DNA of 53,681 bases from the NCBI GenBank assembly GCA_905233845.1, contig CAJOFH010000012.1:1-53681 (forward strand), read 5' to 3'. Source of the stretch: an uncultured Muribaculaceae bacterium (lineage in GTDB: Bacteria > Bacteroidota > Bacteroidia > Bacteroidales > Muribaculaceae). The notes under the pieces are model-generated. The model was not told the DNA's origin. It worked only from the letters and a program-made list of their open reading frames with translations, and made no database searches. Positions 47,388 to 53,341 of this stretch are shown one piece after another (within the stretch, counting starts at the first letter, position 1; each line of letters starts with the position of its first letter). Both the position numbers and the translations under genes were made by a program.

Positions 47388-49376
47388 ATGATTAGCAAGA
47401 AATTTCTGTGCATTGCCATTATATTGGGCACAGCGGTAGCACCAGTGAGTGCAAAATTGAACCTGCCAATAAAAAAATTGGGCAAAGAGTCATACTATTA
47501 TTACGAAGTTAAGAAGAACGAGACCATCTTTGACGTGGCTACTAAAATCGGGGTGAGCAAAGACGACATCGTCAAGTACAATCCCTCGGCAAAGAACGGC
47601 CTTGTGAAAAAGCAACTCATCTTCTTTCCCTTGAAAGACTTTGACGGCTCCAAGCCCAGCTCAGCCGTGAGCAACGTCAATCCCTCTTCGTTTGAGAGGC
47701 TGGTGAAACACACTGTCAAGAATGGCGAGAGCGTGTACAGCATAGCCAAAGCCTACAACGTGAGCCAAAAAGACCTGCTCGACGTCAACCCTGCCATAGC
47801 TGGCGGCGTGAAGGCCGGAGACGTGCTCAACATTCCCAACACACTGGTGAGCAGCAATAAAGGAGACTATATCTATCACACGTTGGTTGAAGGCGAATCG
47901 TTGTTCTCCATTGCCAAAAAGTACAACACCACCATAGAACAACTAGTGAAATCCAATCCAGGCATCACAGGCAACAACCTTAAAGAGAATGATATCATAA
48001 GAATCATCCCTAACACCACCGAAAATGTTGTTGTCAACAAAGACTTTGACCAGTTCATCACCTACGTTGTTAACAAGGGCGACACCTATGAGAGCGTGGC
48101 TAAAGCCTACAACGTGAGTGTTGAACAGCTCAAGAGTTCAAACCCCGACCAGAAAAAACTAAAAAAGGGCAAAACCATTTATATACCACAGAAAGGTGTC
48201 ACACAGACGGTAGTCAGCACGTCGGAGCTCACCCAGCAACAATTAGAGGAGGCTTATAAGGGAAAATTAGATGGCATCTACTCCGAGGTGATAGCCCCCA
48301 ACAAAAACAACACCATTGACATCAGCATTATCTTGCCCTTCCAGCTCGGCATGAAACCACAGACTAAAAACGCGAGCAACTATCTCGAGTTTTATAACGG
48401 ATTCATACTCGCCCTTGACAGCATTGGGCCAAAGCTTAGCAAGCCGTTGAACCTAAACGTTTATGACACTCGACATTCACTCACCACGACCGACAGCATA
48501 TTAGCATTAGAGCCACTCAAGACAAGTGACATCATCATCGCCCCAAGCGAGCCACAGCAACTGGAGAAGATTGTGAATTATGGAAAAGCCAACAATATCG
48601 ACATCTTGAGTTGCTTCGCCATACAAAACGATGATTACATCAACAACAGCCGAGTGTTGCAAGTCAATTACCCGTCGCCCTATCTGAGTGCACGCGTCAA
48701 TGAATATATTGACAACAAATTTAAAGATTATGTACTCGTTTATCTCGACGACCCAAGTGGCAAAGACAAGGACATCTATGGCGACATTAAAAGCCATGCC
48801 AGTGAAGTTAAACATCAGAACAAGACTATAACCGTGTCGTCAGAACTTTCAGGAAAAGACATCTCTAAATATCTTGAGCCAGGCTCTAGCTACCTCTTCA
48901 TTCCCGCTAATGGCAAAGAGAGTTTGCTCAAGAAGTTTGCAAAAGGCCTAAAAGAAGCAAAGAACACCCGCATTGATTGTGATCTTGTATTGCTTGGACT
49001 TCCTGAATACACAATGTACATCGAACAATATAAAGACCTTTTCATGTCGATGGACACCCACATCTATTCTCGCTACTACCTGCCCAATAACGATAGAGCA
49101 AAAGATATCAAGAACAAATATGTAAAGAAATATAAATCAGTGCCTGCCACTGTAGCTCCCAACATGGGAGTATATGGGTTTGACACTGGCATGTATCTGC
49201 TTAATGCTTATATTAATGGAGTAGTTCCTGGAAGTAAAGATTCATCATATAACGGCATACAGTCAAACTTTGACTTCGAACGTGCCAACAATTGGGCAGG
49301 ACATATTAACAAGTCGGTAAGAATCATTCATCTTACCCCCAAGAAAGAGATGTTAATCCAAGATTTGAATGACTAA
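47388..49376 (+). CDS. four-LysM protein fused to a periplasmic-binding (type 1) domain
   Basis: A 662-residue exported protein with a signal peptide (1-22). Four LysM repeats at about 36-81, 107-150, 162-208 and 224-267 should bind peptidoglycan. The C-terminal half (about 290-660; IDISIILPFQLGMKPQTKN) resembles a type 1 periplasmic-binding protein (amino-acid/amide family) with no transporter genes near. The start at 47388 is preferred over 47325 because the extra 21 residues are polar and would bury the signal peptide. It overlaps the PorT-like gene by 8 bases. The role in cell-wall sensing or assembly is a guess. Confidence 0.8.
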   Translation: MISKKFLCIAIILGTAVAPVSAKLNLPIKKLGKESYYYYEVKKNETIFDVATKIGVSKDDIVKYNPSAKNGLVKKQLIFFPLKDFDGSKPSSAVSNVNPSSFERLVKHTVKNGESVYSIAKAYNVSQKDLLDVNPAIAGGVKAGDVLNIPNTLVSSNKGDYIYHTLVEGESLFSIAKKYNTTIEQLVKSNPGITGNNLKENDIIRIIPNTTENVVVNKDFDQFITYVVNKGDTYESVAKAYNVSVEQLKSSNPDQKKLKKGKTIYIPQKGVTQTVVSTSELTQQQLEEAYKGKLDGIYSEVIAPNKNNTIDISIILPFQLGMKPQTKNASNYLEFYNGFILALDSIGPKLSKPLNLNVYDTRHSLTTTDSILALEPLKTSDIIIAPSEPQQLEKIVNYGKANNIDILSCFAIQNDDYINNSRVLQVNYPSPYLSARVNEYIDNKFKDYVLVYLDDPSGKDKDIYGDIKSHASEVKHQNKTITVSSELSGKDISKYLEPGSSYLFIPANGKESLLKKFAKGLKEAKNTRIDCDLVLLGLPEYTMYIEQYKDLFMSMDTHIYSRYYLPNNDRAKDIKNKYVKKYKSVPATVAPNMGVYGFDTGMYLLNAYINGVVPGSKDSSYNGIQSNFDFERANNWAGHINKSVRIIHLTPKKEMLIQDLND

Positions 49377-50070
49377 GACGTTCTTAATATTAATTACATT
49401 CATTGCATTAGCGACAGCTACGGCGAGCAAGGCCGTAGCTGCCGACTTATATTACAATAACAACTTAAGCATCGGTGCTAAGGGGGGCGTTAGTCTATCA
49501 AAGGTGAACTTCCAGTCTTCAGTTCCTCAAAAGATGATCACTGGAGCCATTTTTGGAGCATCGGTGAGATATATTGAGGAGAAACATTTTGGCCTCATTG
49601 CTGAGTTGAATTTTGAGCAGAGAGGCTGGAACGAGGATTTCGAGCCATTAGAGGGCTATAGTTTCAAACGTCAATTCACCTATATTCAACTTCCCCTGCT
49701 GACTCACATATACTTTGGCAACGAGAAAGCACGAGTATTTTTCAACGCCGGCCCAGAGATTGGTTTAATGATTGGCGACAAGACAACGAGCAATTTTGAC
49801 TACTCTCATGCGGCCGACATTGAGGACTTCATCACCAATTATCGCCAGACAGAACAGTTCTCATTGCCTGTGAAACGCAAGTTTGACTATGGTATTTCGG
49901 CAAGTTTGGGCATGGAATTAAGCCTGTCGTCTAAGCATGCCCTCAACTTAGAAGGACGCTTCTATTATGGCCTGAGCGATATTTTCAGCAACCGAAAGAG
50001 CGACCCATTTCAGGGCTCCTCATCGATGTCAATCATGGTGACCTTGGGCTATATTATCCGCATCAAGTGA
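49369..50070 (+). CDS. PorT-like outer-membrane beta-barrel protein
   Basis: A 233-residue exported protein with a signal peptide (1-24) and a predicted 8-strand barrel (alternating strands such as SIGAKGGVSLSKVNF and MSIMVTLGYIIRIK) of the PorT/OMP_b-brl_2 group. PorT relatives take part in type IX secretion, but the other Por proteins are not in the window. Translation is coupled to the LysM-PBP gene by an 8-base overlap, so the two likely form a cell-envelope pair. Confidence 0.8.
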   Translation: MTKTFLILITFIALATATASKAVAADLYYNNNLSIGAKGGVSLSKVNFQSSVPQKMITGAIFGASVRYIEEKHFGLIAELNFEQRGWNEDFEPLEGYSFKRQFTYIQLPLLTHIYFGNEKARVFFNAGPEIGLMIGDKTTSNFDYSHAADIEDFITNYRQTEQFSLPVKRKFDYGISASLGMELSLSSKHALNLEGRFYYGLSDIFSNRKSDPFQGSSSMSIMVTLGYIIRIK

Positions 50071-50104: not shown

Positions 50105-50357
50105 AAAACAAAGGATGCTACCCATGCAGTGCAGGTAGCATCCTTTCGTTATAAAAAGCCACATCAAAGGGATGTGATGAAACTCCGATAAATACAGGAT
50201 TTGAGGGTATCCCAATCTTTGTAATCCTCTGGTCGCAAAGACACCAAAATGGTTGAGGCCCGCCATTGACCGAAATACTTAACTCGGCATTTCATAAAAA
50301 TTTGAAGAGTATCCCAATCAGCTTTGATGTGGACATTATTTCAATGAGCATTTTGTT
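50105..50357 (-). ncRNA. candidate structured small RNA, 6S-like outline
   Basis: A consensus promoter (50363-50393) and a strong terminator (50110-50146, then TTTGTTTTT) frame about 250 bases on the minus strand. The RNA 5' part CCACATCAAAG (50332-50322) pairs exactly with CTTTGATGTGG (50169-50159). Inside this closing stem are an asymmetric bubble and a second stem: ATGAAA with TTTCAT, CCGA with TCGG, and TAAGTAT with GTATTTA. Total length near 200 bases before the terminator and this layered hairpin recall 6S RNA. There is no match to tmRNA, SRP RNA or RNase P that I can see. Only a weak 43-codon ORF overlaps (50164-50295). Confidence 0.5.
50110..50146. terminator. terminator of the candidate RNA and of the PorT-like gene
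   Basis: A perfect 13-bp stem (50110-50122 with 50134-50146) and an 11-base loop. The minus strand has TTTGTTTTT after it; on the plus strand it follows the PorT-like stop by 40 bases, so it may act both ways. Confidence 0.85.
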
Positions 50358-50362
50358 CATTG

Positions 50363-50393
50363 CAAAATTACAAACAAATGATGAAAAAACAAA
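50363..50393 (-). promoter_or_regulatory. promoter of the candidate small RNA
   Basis: Minus strand TTTG (50393-50390), a 19-base spacer and TAATTTTG (50370-50363), exact in both elements. The start would be near 50357. No gene in the window other than the candidate RNA would use it. Confidence 0.7.
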
Positions 50394-50487: not shown

Positions 50488-52572
50488 TTATCGATTATCA
50501 AACTTGATATATGCTCCTTTTTCCTTGATATTATAATGAGGTATTCTCAATGTATCACATTCCTTTTCCAAAGCAGCATTATCCTCATTATAAATTCCCC
50601 CTGAGAGAATGATGCTGCCGCATGAAATAAGATTCTTCAACGTGGCAACATTAGAGTGGAAACCCTTAGTGATTAGAGCAATGTCGAAAGAGATATCACT
50701 ACTGTCCTGGCGTATGTAGTGCTTCCAACGACCTTTACCAGCAGCAACAATTACCAAGTCTTGAATGTTGGCATAAGGAGGGTCGATAACAGCCCCAGGC
50801 AACTCACATTTCACACTGTCAACAAGCCTCAACGAGTCAATGCCATAATGTGCAAGGAAGGCACGATTCCATCGTTTGAAATTAGCCAAATCATAGTCAT
50901 TTTCCACATCAGGGACCCACAACAAAGCATCGCTACCGTTGAAATATAGTACTGGAGTAGAGTTAAAAGAGTTGAAAATAACCATTCCACGCCGAGGCAA
51001 CATGGCATCTTGCCACATCCAGCATGCAACGCCCACCGCCATAGTGGCAGCTGCCGCCATGAGCCATCGCACGTTGCGACGATAAATCCACAAAGCAAGC
51101 ATTACAACAATGGTGTAATAAATTGCAACAATAACCCATGAAACATAAACACCACCATTCGCAATCGACAAAGACGACATCCCCGACGCTTCAGCCTGAA
51201 TGGCATGAGTAATCCAATCTATCACCGAAGAGACAACCCCTATTTCACCTCCAAACGCCAGCATGACCAACACAACAGCTCCAAGTATCATAAACACTGG
51301 GATTAGAGGCATTACCAGCACATTAGAGAAAACTGTTACAAGTGATATGGTATTGAAATAATAAGCAGTGAGGACAAGCGTCGACACCATCGCCACAGCC
51401 GATGTCAATAAAGTCGTATATAGATAGTTAAGAAATTTGTTGTCAGGGAATTTCAACTCAAATGCCTGATAGAAGATAATGAGTGCCACCACAGTGATAA
51501 AGCTAAGCTGGAATCCCACACTATAGAGAGAATTTGGTGAGAACAACAATATCGCCAGAGCCGCCACCAATATCGAGTTTAGCGGTGAAGACTTACGATA
51601 GAAAATTTGCGATAAAAAGACAAAGGCAATCATCACAGTTGACCTAATCACCGATGGCGACAGTCCAGTAAGAATATCGTAGCCAATTAAAGCAAAAATA
51701 GTAATAACTAACCTCACCTTCTTTCCACGAATGTAGTCAAAAGGGAAGAGCAAGAACCAAATGATGAGTGAGATCACCACTACATGGAGTCCACTCAAGG
51801 CGAGTACGTGGGCGATACCTGCTTGAGAAAAACTGTCACGCACCGAAGGCTCGATGAAATCGTCGTTGCCAAGCAGCATTGCTATTATTAGTGATTGGGA
51901 CTCGGGGCTGAGGTTTGAGTTTAGAACACGGTGTTGCAAGTCGCTCCTAAAGTTGAATGTCCTAGTCAAGATTGTAGGCGAGTCACCCACTTTTGCCACC
52001 TCACGCGCATCGGTGTGCTGCCGGTAGATTATCCCCTTGTCGTGTAGATATTGAGCATAATCCATCTCATCAGGATTGCCCATGTTGCGCACCAGGCTTA
52101 AATTAAGGCTGAAAGCGATGAGATTTCCAGCTTCTAAATCATAGTCACATCCTCTTGTCGAGAGCAGGATGTGAGAACCTCCCACTGATTTCTCATCACC
52201 GCCTGCGTTAAGCAGTTTTACCTGCATCAACATGCTTTGTTCATTGTATTTTATTGTCTCGATGCGTGCGCAAGCAGTCTTGTCTTTGAGATAATCAACG
52301 TCGAGACGTGGAGGCTCGAAAAGCCATGATGTAGTCCATCCCACCGCCACCATAGCAATCGAGAGCGGAACGATGCGATAGCTGCGCAGCTTCAGCTTGA
52401 TTGCAGGAGAGCTGCCAGCTAATCGCATTGCCAGCAGCGCAGCAACAGTCACAACTGTCAGCACAATAAGAACGAGAATGCTATCAGTGATGCGATACAA
52501 AACAATTCCCACCACCATTGGCAGCAGGAGCCTGAGCACAGGAAAGCGTGACAAAACACTGACGTTGCCCAT
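50488..52572 (-). CDS. comEC: ComEC/Rec2 family DNA-uptake channel protein
   Basis: A 694-residue polytopic inner-membrane protein of the ComEC family, which moves single-stranded DNA into the cell in transformation. An N-terminal DUF4131-like part (about 15-180) precedes the competence core with ALSGLHVVVISLIIWFLLFP near residue 255. The C-terminal domain after the last helices resembles a reduced metallo-beta-lactamase domain, but no H-x-H-x-D-H motif is seen, so no nuclease activity is expected. The ATG at 52572 is preferred over 52611, which would overlap aroE by 32 bases and add a polar stretch. Natural competence is not shown by this gene alone. Confidence 0.85.
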   Translation of the reverse strand: MGNVSVLSRFPVLRLLLPMVVGIVLYRITDSILVLIVLTVVTVAALLAMRLAGSSPAIKLKLRSYRIVPLSIAMVAVGWTTSWLFEPPRLDVDYLKDKTACARIETIKYNEQSMLMQVKLLNAGGDEKSVGGSHILLSTRGCDYDLEAGNLIAFSLNLSLVRNMGNPDEMDYAQYLHDKGIIYRQHTDAREVAKVGDSPTILTRTFNFRSDLQHRVLNSNLSPESQSLIIAMLLGNDDFIEPSVRDSFSQAGIAHVLALSGLHVVVISLIIWFLLFPFDYIRGKKVRLVITIFALIGYDILTGLSPSVIRSTVMIAFVFLSQIFYRKSSPLNSILVAALAILLFSPNSLYSVGFQLSFITVVALIIFYQAFELKFPDNKFLNYLYTTLLTSAVAMVSTLVLTAYYFNTISLVTVFSNVLVMPLIPVFMILGAVVLVMLAFGGEIGVVSSVIDWITHAIQAEASGMSSLSIANGGVYVSWVIVAIYYTIVVMLALWIYRRNVRWLMAAAATMAVGVACWMWQDAMLPRRGMVIFNSFNSTPVLYFNGSDALLWVPDVENDYDLANFKRWNRAFLAHYGIDSLRLVDSVKCELPGAVIDPPYANIQDLVIVAAGKGRWKHYIRQDSSDISFDIALITKGFHSNVATLKNLISCGSIILSGGIYNEDNAALEKECDTLRIPHYNIKEKGAYIKFDNR

Positions 52573-52579
52573 TGAAGTA

Positions 52580-53341
52580 TTATTTCTCGGTCCAGATTCT
52601 GTAAGACTCAAAGGCTTGGAGCAGCAACATTTCGAGGCCGCTTTTCACTGCGGCGCCTTGTTCCTTGGCACGCTTCATGAATGTGGTCTCGCTTGGGTTA
52701 TAAATAAGGTCATAGCACAGGTGTTGAGGTGTGATAAAGCGGTAAGGAATATCGGGGCACATCTCAGTGTCGGGGTAGGTGCCCAATGGAGTGGTGTTCA
52801 CAATTATCTTGTGCTCATGAATCATTTGCTTGGTAAGCTCCTCATAGGTGATGATGGCTGCCGACTTGCGACGAGAAACATAGTGAACATCAATCCCCAG
52901 CGACTCAAGAGCCGCCTTCACCGCCTTACTTGCTCCGCCAGTGCCAAGCACCAGCGCACTTTTCATCTCGGGAGTGAGCAATGGTTTAAGTGTGTCGATA
53001 AACGCTGTGTAGTCGGTATTGTAGCCCACAAGCTTGACGCCCCCCGCCCTCGCGCTCTTGATTATTTTTATCACATTCACGGCTCCAACCTTTTCGGCAG
53101 TCTCGTCGAGCTCGTCCATGAAAGGCATGACCTTCTCTTTATAAGGCATCGTCACGTTCAGGCCATCGAGGTTGGAATACTCGCTCAAGATTGTCATCAG
53201 CTCGCCAATGTCGTTGAGCTCAAAGTTGAAATATTGAGCGTCTATGCCCTCGCTGATGAATTTCTGGTTGAAGAAATCCATCGAGAAGGAGTGAGAGAGG
53301 GATGTACCTATCAGCCCATATATCTTGCCTTCGGAGGTCAT
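52580..53341 (-). CDS. aroE: shikimate dehydrogenase
   Basis: A 253-residue enzyme that reduces 3-dehydroshikimate with NADPH in aromatic amino-acid synthesis. The substrate site includes GTSLSHSFS near residue 12, catalytic Lys68 in NVTMPYKEK and Asp110 in YNTDYTAF; the cofactor loop is LGTGGASKA. It is short but complete for the family. It precedes comEC by 7 bases and has its own promoter. Confidence 0.93.
   Translation of the reverse strand: MTSEGKIYGLIGTSLSHSFSMDFFNQKFISEGIDAQYFNFELNDIGELMTILSEYSNLDGLNVTMPYKEKVMPFMDELDETAEKVGAVNVIKIIKSARAGGVKLVGYNTDYTAFIDTLKPLLTPEMKSALVLGTGGASKAVKAALESLGIDVHYVSRRKSAAIITYEELTKQMIHEHKIIVNTTPLGTYPDTEMCPDIPYRFITPQHLCYDLIYNPSETTFMKRAKEQGAAVKSGLEMLLLQAFESYRIWTEK

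Follow-up and report, generated by a model that had tools for sequence, protein, structure and literature searches.

A probable 6S RNA gene with its own promoter and a boxA-like leader element in an uncultured Muribaculaceae bacterium

In this work, we analyze a stretch of 53,681 nucleotides from an uncultured Muribaculaceae bacterium (contig CAJOFH010000012.1 of assembly GCA_905233845.1), referred to below as the window. On its minus strand, a structured RNA gene lies between a gene for an outer-membrane beta-barrel protein (49369-50070, plus strand, PF13568) and a comEC-type gene (50488-52611, minus strand, PF03772). An earlier note on this DNA, written from the letters alone, had placed an RNA gene between comEC and what it called a PorT-like gene, and this gene is real: in a cmscan search of Rfam, the family RF01693 (the Bacteroidales-1 RNA of Weinberg et al. 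2010, PMC2864571) matches positions 50151-50334 of the minus strand over the whole model (1-179), with 110.5 bits against a curated cut-off of 60 and an E-value of 1.7e-17. It belongs, therefore, to a kind of RNA already catalogued, and not to a new one. The same model finds a single copy in the window's genome. Among the matches listed by a scan with a GC-rich pattern, which hit unrelated genomes for the most part and served to name relatives, the closest named record is an uncultured "Prevotellaceae" genome, with 92.9% identity over 184 nt, followed by a Muribaculaceae genome with 85.9%. RF01693 was found in 17 of 31 genomes of relatives (16 above the cut-off) and, at E <= 0.001, in 79 of the 295 genomes of a Bacteroidales sample (56 above it).

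The gene has an exact promoter sequence of its own. Read directly on the minus strand, a -33-like TTTG (50390-50393) is followed, after a spacer of 19 bases, by the -7 box TAATTTTG (50363-50370), just as the earlier note had described; a further TTTG just downstream of the first makes the -33 box less telling. The -7 box is the informative part. Of 70 core loci, the window included, 65 have a sequence of the form TAnnTTTG in the 80 nt ahead of the RNA, where shuffled sequences give a mean of 5.2 and a maximum of 13; the same holds for all 15 loci from the genus of the window (shuffle mean 0.88). Moreover, the box has been kept although the flanking sequence diverges between loci. Transcription would be driven from this housekeeping promoter, starting near 50356, and the transcript would consist of a short leader with a boxA-like element followed by the 184-nt RNA, made up of a closing stem, a large conserved central region and an apical stem.

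At the other end of the gene, the terminator scan returned two terminator-like sites in the stretch, compared with 0.1 in shuffles. One is the 13-bp hairpin that the earlier note took for the terminator, which is present on the minus strand at 50110-50146 and runs into a T tract (GTTTTT tail). The other is nearer and smaller, located at the closing stem itself (50159-50177), with a T tract directly behind that stem (50153-50157). Of the 15 genus loci, 14 have a hairpin of 8 bp or more and a T run behind the RNA (shuffle mean 1.45), as do 31 of 71 loci outside the genus (shuffle mean 3.0). A second terminator had not been expected. Because there are two such sites behind the RNA, the primary transcript is probably about 200-250 nt long, around a conserved core of 184 nt; it may stop just past the closing stem, at the T tract, or continue for another 45-50 nt to the second hairpin.

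The interval might instead be an untranslated leader or a small-protein gene belonging to its neighbors, given that the minus strand has two small open reading frames (43 and 54 aa), but we consider this extremely improbable. Of 14 congeners, two have the 43-aa frame open and four the part of the 54-aa frame that was examined. Both frames are net frame-shifted in 9 of the 14 and, with internal stops counted, the first is broken in 12 and the examined part of the second in 10. Neither has a Pfam match. A coding reading was thus rejected, and the claim that no protein gene accounts for the interval holds. As for a leader, the RNA leads into neither neighbor, since comEC precedes it on the same strand and the beta-barrel gene converges on it from the opposite strand. 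These neighbors are not even kept: among the 15 genus loci, most of which reach about 1.5 kb to each side, the window alone has comEC next to the RNA, and just two further loci (L042 and L046) share its beta-barrel and LysM genes. The RNA is therefore a free-standing gene, structured and with the outline of a 6S RNA.

This outline was studied in alignments of 69 homologues from the order, leaving out loci that were weak or outside it (L004-L006, L050 and L075-L090) and one cut by a contig end (L069). Covariation was counted on 66 rows, after removal of three sequences more than 97% identical to others (L018, L024 and L025), and a MAFFT alignment, A1, was made from 46 of 90 loci chosen for diversity. 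The 11-bp long-range stem pointed out in the earlier note, which pairs 50322-50332 (5' arm) with 50159-50169 (3' arm), is exact in the window and covaries among relatives. It is paired in 611 of 682 cells of the 66 rows, and all 11 pairs show at least two Watson-Crick types, each seen at least twice. On A1, the closing stem and the apical stem (50207-50278, with conserved GGCGGGCC and GGAUUACAAAG side loops) together reach a covariation score of 0.454; none of 500 shuffles came up to this value (mean 0.211), and slid versions gave at most 0.158. In an R-scape-like test with a tree-based null, the top 14 of 17,205 column pairs include seven pairs of the closing stem and six of the apical stem. 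When all 17,205 column pairs are allowed for, E < 0.05 is reached by just two, both in the apical stem, and single pairs of the closing stem are not significant (best E 0.61); the inner six pairs of this stem are formed in only 64% of the cells of A1. The long-range closing stem, a general trait of 6S RNAs, is present.

Covariation among relatives, which the earlier note had named as a check on all its stems, favors the closing stem and not the inner ones. The latter are present in the window, but their covariation score of 0.091 is hardly above that of shuffles (0.082, reached by 56 of 500). They are paired in 61.9% of the cells of A1, compared with 60.5% in shuffles (20 of 500 reach the observed value) and at most 47.2% in slid versions; taken singly and counted on the 66 rows, ATGAAA/TTTCAT is paired in 74% of cells, CCGA/TCGG, nearly invariant, in 87%, and TAAGTAT/GTATTTA in 48%. 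The two strands between the closing and apical stems are partly near-invariant and open to competing pairings, while both flanking stems covary. The 5' strand (50279-50321) is in part highly conserved, and the 3' strand (50170-50206) carries a near-invariant CUCAAAUCCUGU and GGAGUUU. GAAACUC can pair with GAGUUUC in 94% of cells (the window and its genus carry a U-U mismatch in this otherwise near-invariant pairing), and AAAUCC with GGAGUUU in 97%; since the strands hardly vary, covariation can scarcely judge these pairings.

The 3' arm of the closing stem may also pair locally with 50171-50176, forming the hairpin CACAUC/GAUGUG of the nearer terminator, which is paired in 77.5% of cells. In the window this local hairpin (50159-50176) would compete with the closing stem, a possible switch between terminator and closing stem. 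Single-sequence folding alone provides weak evidence, being only slightly better than that of shuffles: the core has a z-score of -1.98, with 4 of 200 shuffles folding as well, and the core with its leader -1.15, with 22 of 200 as good.

Two smaller elements of the earlier description had to be given up. The direct repeat GATTGGGATAC was rejected as a functional unit because its second copy, which falls in the variable apical stem, is not conserved. Likewise, TCCCTTTG, read there as a promoter mimic, is simply part of the 3' arm of the closing stem and changes with that stem among relatives.

The earlier note had also named Rfam covariance searches as a check, and the outcome was mixed, with the match to RF01693 described above and none in the window's genome to the other two 6S families. 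The canonical 6S model, RF00013, has no match there at E <= 0.001, and matched 5 of 14 control genomes. RF01685 (6S-Flavo) has no match there either, in a run in which the control genomes also remained without one; in a search of a phylum sample, RF01685 matched 36 of 296 genomes, and the window's was not among them. RF01693 matched 6 of 296 genomes in the phylum sample, three of them outside the order, and RF01693 and RF01685 meet at the same three loci (genomes G012, G095 and G053).

We therefore turn to R1, a covariance model built with the closing stem, whose E-values are rough because its calibration was short. Its training set overlaps the search of the order and includes the window's RNA, which scores 152.3 bits; 40 examined new loci and 11 loci of 6S-Flavo lie outside it. 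R1 matched 146 of the 295 order genomes, in one place each, including all 79 found by RF01693, and had no match in the other 149 genomes sampled. Among the loci of 6S-Flavo, it matched all 11 that were tried (the three shared loci plus the 8 with the best scores out of 36), each time at the position and on the strand expected, with E-values from 1.6e-10 to 1.1e-5 and one stray match at 0.37. It did not match the tmRNA and RNase P RNA control loci. When 20 of the new weak loci were scanned against Rfam, seven scored at E <= 0.1, always with RF01693 or RF01685, and RF00013 matched none of the 20. These sequence comparisons support homology between the window's RNA family and 6S-Flavo. A model that includes the closing stem thus joins two Rfam families and raises the number of genomes with a match in the order almost twofold, from 79 to 146 of 295.

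Moreover, R1 brought out a gene order. Of the 67 new loci, 40 were examined, 20 from among the best-scoring and 20 that were the weakest or nearly so, and fetched with more flank. All 40 are located directly behind zapA: in each, a frame of about 100 aa either ends no more than 67 nt before the RNA begins or runs a few bases into it, and the frame was identified by a loose ZapA motif in 35 loci (L320 also by Pfam ZapA) and by Pfam in the other five. The ZapA motif was likewise seen in the gene ahead of the RNA in all 11 loci of 6S-Flavo. The downstream gene, which from its sequence features we take to be RNase Y-like, has this resemblance in 13 of 16 loci listed as zapA-linked; two of the three exceptions (L074 and L076) have zapA elsewhere in the genome. 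In E. coli, the 6S gene likewise adjoins zapA (zapA-ssrS), and the order found with R1 resembles this one.

In the window's genome, zapA is found on another contig from the RNA, and in other lineages the RNA follows rplT (Pfam L20 in the case of L014; B. finegoldii is a named case). TAnnTTTG precedes the RNA in 11 of 11 rplT-linked loci and in 0 of 11 zapA-linked ones, both sets having been gathered with strict patterns that undercount, and it is missing within 100 nt upstream in all 40 new zapA-linked loci. The B. finegoldii match (L386, NZ_OY725913.1 57084-65229) belongs to a record labelled as a plasmid, in which a 6S-like match comes after thrS-infC-rpmI-rplT; a plasmid-borne 6S was rejected, since this surrounding is chromosome-like.

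We also looked for a 6S copy left at zapA in genomes that have 6S elsewhere, and discarded the idea, the best R1 match in 26 such zapA loci having an E-value of 2.7. The gaps between zapA and the RNase Y-like gene in these genomes (L360-L385; for instance G000:C1 behind 73411) show a hairpin like TTCCTGCACTGC...GYAGTGCTTTTTT, present by eye in 16 of the 26 gaps printed and resembling the closing stem of zapA-linked 6S. A loose pattern for the start of this hairpin occurs in 21 of 26 gaps, a count that comes without a chance estimate, and 20 of these loci scanned against Rfam gave no match in the gap. The hairpin is perhaps a remnant of a 6S gene.

An unexpected feature, which looks unusual to us, is a boxA-like element resembling that of rRNA leaders just before the RNA. 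In the window it is GCTCATTGAAAT (50338-50349, minus strand). Of the 15 genus loci, 13 have the pattern G.TC[AT]TTGA[AC] in the 40 nt ahead of the RNA, at a distance of 14-19 nt from the core (shuffle mean 0.045); this pattern was widened after the sequences had been inspected, an earlier and narrower one having given 11 of 15 (shuffle mean 0.06). Two congeners that lack the motif (L045 and L047) have a common GTAGTTCCAACACATT just ahead of the RNA. A looser core of the motif was found ahead of the RNA in most of the new zapA-linked loci (32 of 40; shuffle mean 0.9) and of the loci of 6S-Flavo (9 of 11; shuffle mean 0.32). In loci of the order outside the genus, zapA-linked ones included, the motif within 40 nt was found in only 9 of 72 (shuffle mean 0.62), which counts against its being universal. 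Two simple accounts of the motif were discarded. It does not belong to zapA: none of 26 loci with 6S elsewhere has it in the 110 nt that follow this gene. Nor is it a general leader of stable RNAs, since the leaders of tmRNA and of RNase P RNA in the same group, 17 of each, do not have the narrower pattern.

The element resembles boxA of E. coli and B. subtilis, and this likeness is computational only. It could instead be a site of RNA processing, or belong to a promoter read by another sigma factor, a reading that competes with the boxA part of our proposal alone and has close to an even chance of being correct. Since no TAnnTTTG was seen within 100 nt in the 40 new zapA-linked loci, the motif might serve there as part of a promoter; moreover, most Bacteroides-type loci do not have it at all. 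Its presence in rRNA leaders argues against such a reading, a similar motif being located 100-200 nt upstream of 16S rRNA in five of eight order genomes with usable leaders, one of them a congener (shuffle mean 0.16; with a stricter pattern, four of eight, mean 0.017); the genome of the window itself yielded no 16S gene. So does its position in the window's genus, where it stands behind the promoter and hence inside the inferred transcript, as well as its absence upstream of tmRNA and RNase P RNA.

If the element is a boxA, its most likely role, offered here as a hypothesis drawn from these sequence patterns, would be to recruit NusB-NusE so that Rho does not end the untranslated transcript. 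It may shield the RNA from Rho, couple it to rRNA synthesis, or both. More broadly, we tentatively propose, at somewhat less than even odds, that the 6S RNA of Bacteroidota is under Nus-factor (boxA) control like rRNA. The ancestral gene, untranslated, would have had zapA on one side and the RNase Y-like gene on the other, and a boxA-like element right behind the zapA stop would have held off Rho; relocated genes would have gained a promoter, some lineages, that of the window among them, keeping the element. If this is true, the RNA that shuts polymerase down is tied to the machinery that drives rRNA synthesis. The boxA-like leader would then provide a specific and testable link between 6S synthesis and rRNA antitermination.

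In known systems, 6S RNA occupies the RNA polymerase that carries the housekeeping sigma factor, and is freed by the synthesis of a short product RNA (pRNA). By analogy, the RNA of the window most likely occupies the active site of the housekeeping-sigma polymerase and leaves it through pRNA synthesis. The mature RNA would mimic an opened promoter and bind the polymerase when growth slows, being released once the polymerase has copied a pRNA from the bubble, for which the 5' strand of the central region is the candidate template. The present analysis supports the homology, the conservation of the promoter, the closing and apical stems and the gene order in relatives.

A structured RNA with another function, such as a base-pairing regulator or a protein sponge, could be 6S-like only in size and outline. 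The lack of a match to RF00013 is in line with this, as is Rfam's own wording for RF01693, "6S-Bacteroidales RNA suggested", but we regard it as improbable: the family occupies the same loci as 6S-Flavo, in relatives the gene lies behind zapA, no other 6S RNA was found in the window's genome, and pRNAs have been reported for the 6S RNA of Bacteroides thetaiotaomicron (PMC7366714). We conclude, with a probability of roughly nine in ten, that the gene encodes the 6S RNA of a Bacteroidales species, transcribed from its own housekeeping promoter into an RNA that mimics an opened promoter. The 6S idea of the earlier note was thus probably a correct guess as to the kind of RNA, backed by the outline and by the Rfam suggestion. 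For a large group of gut bacteria, these results put 6S RNA on a firmer footing.

How the RNA of the window compares with known systems can now be considered. Relative to RF01693, it is the same over the whole model and scores far above the cut-off, but the Rfam structure that it matches has both ends unpaired, whereas in the window's RNA the ends form a covarying closing stem. With 6S-Flavo (RF01685) it shares the three loci found by both models, blocks of AAACUC and GGAGUUU common to the two families, and, in part of its own order, the position of zapA upstream that was seen in all 11 loci looked at; it differs in that RF01685 does not match the window's genome and in that the window's gene stands away from zapA with its own TAnnTTTG promoter. 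The canonical 6S RNA (RF00013, SsrS of E. coli) has an outline of closing stem, central bubble and apical stem that the RNA of the window would share, its sequence model finds nothing in the window's genome, and its zapA neighbor in E. coli recurs in the zapA-linked relatives within the window's order. For B. thetaiotaomicron, a dRNA-seq study reports a 6S RNA and two classes of pRNA (PMC7366714). That RNA is presumably of the same family as RF01693, judging from B. ihuae, which matches RF01693 above the cut-off, and from the B. finegoldii record, which has a 72%-identical stretch behind rplT.
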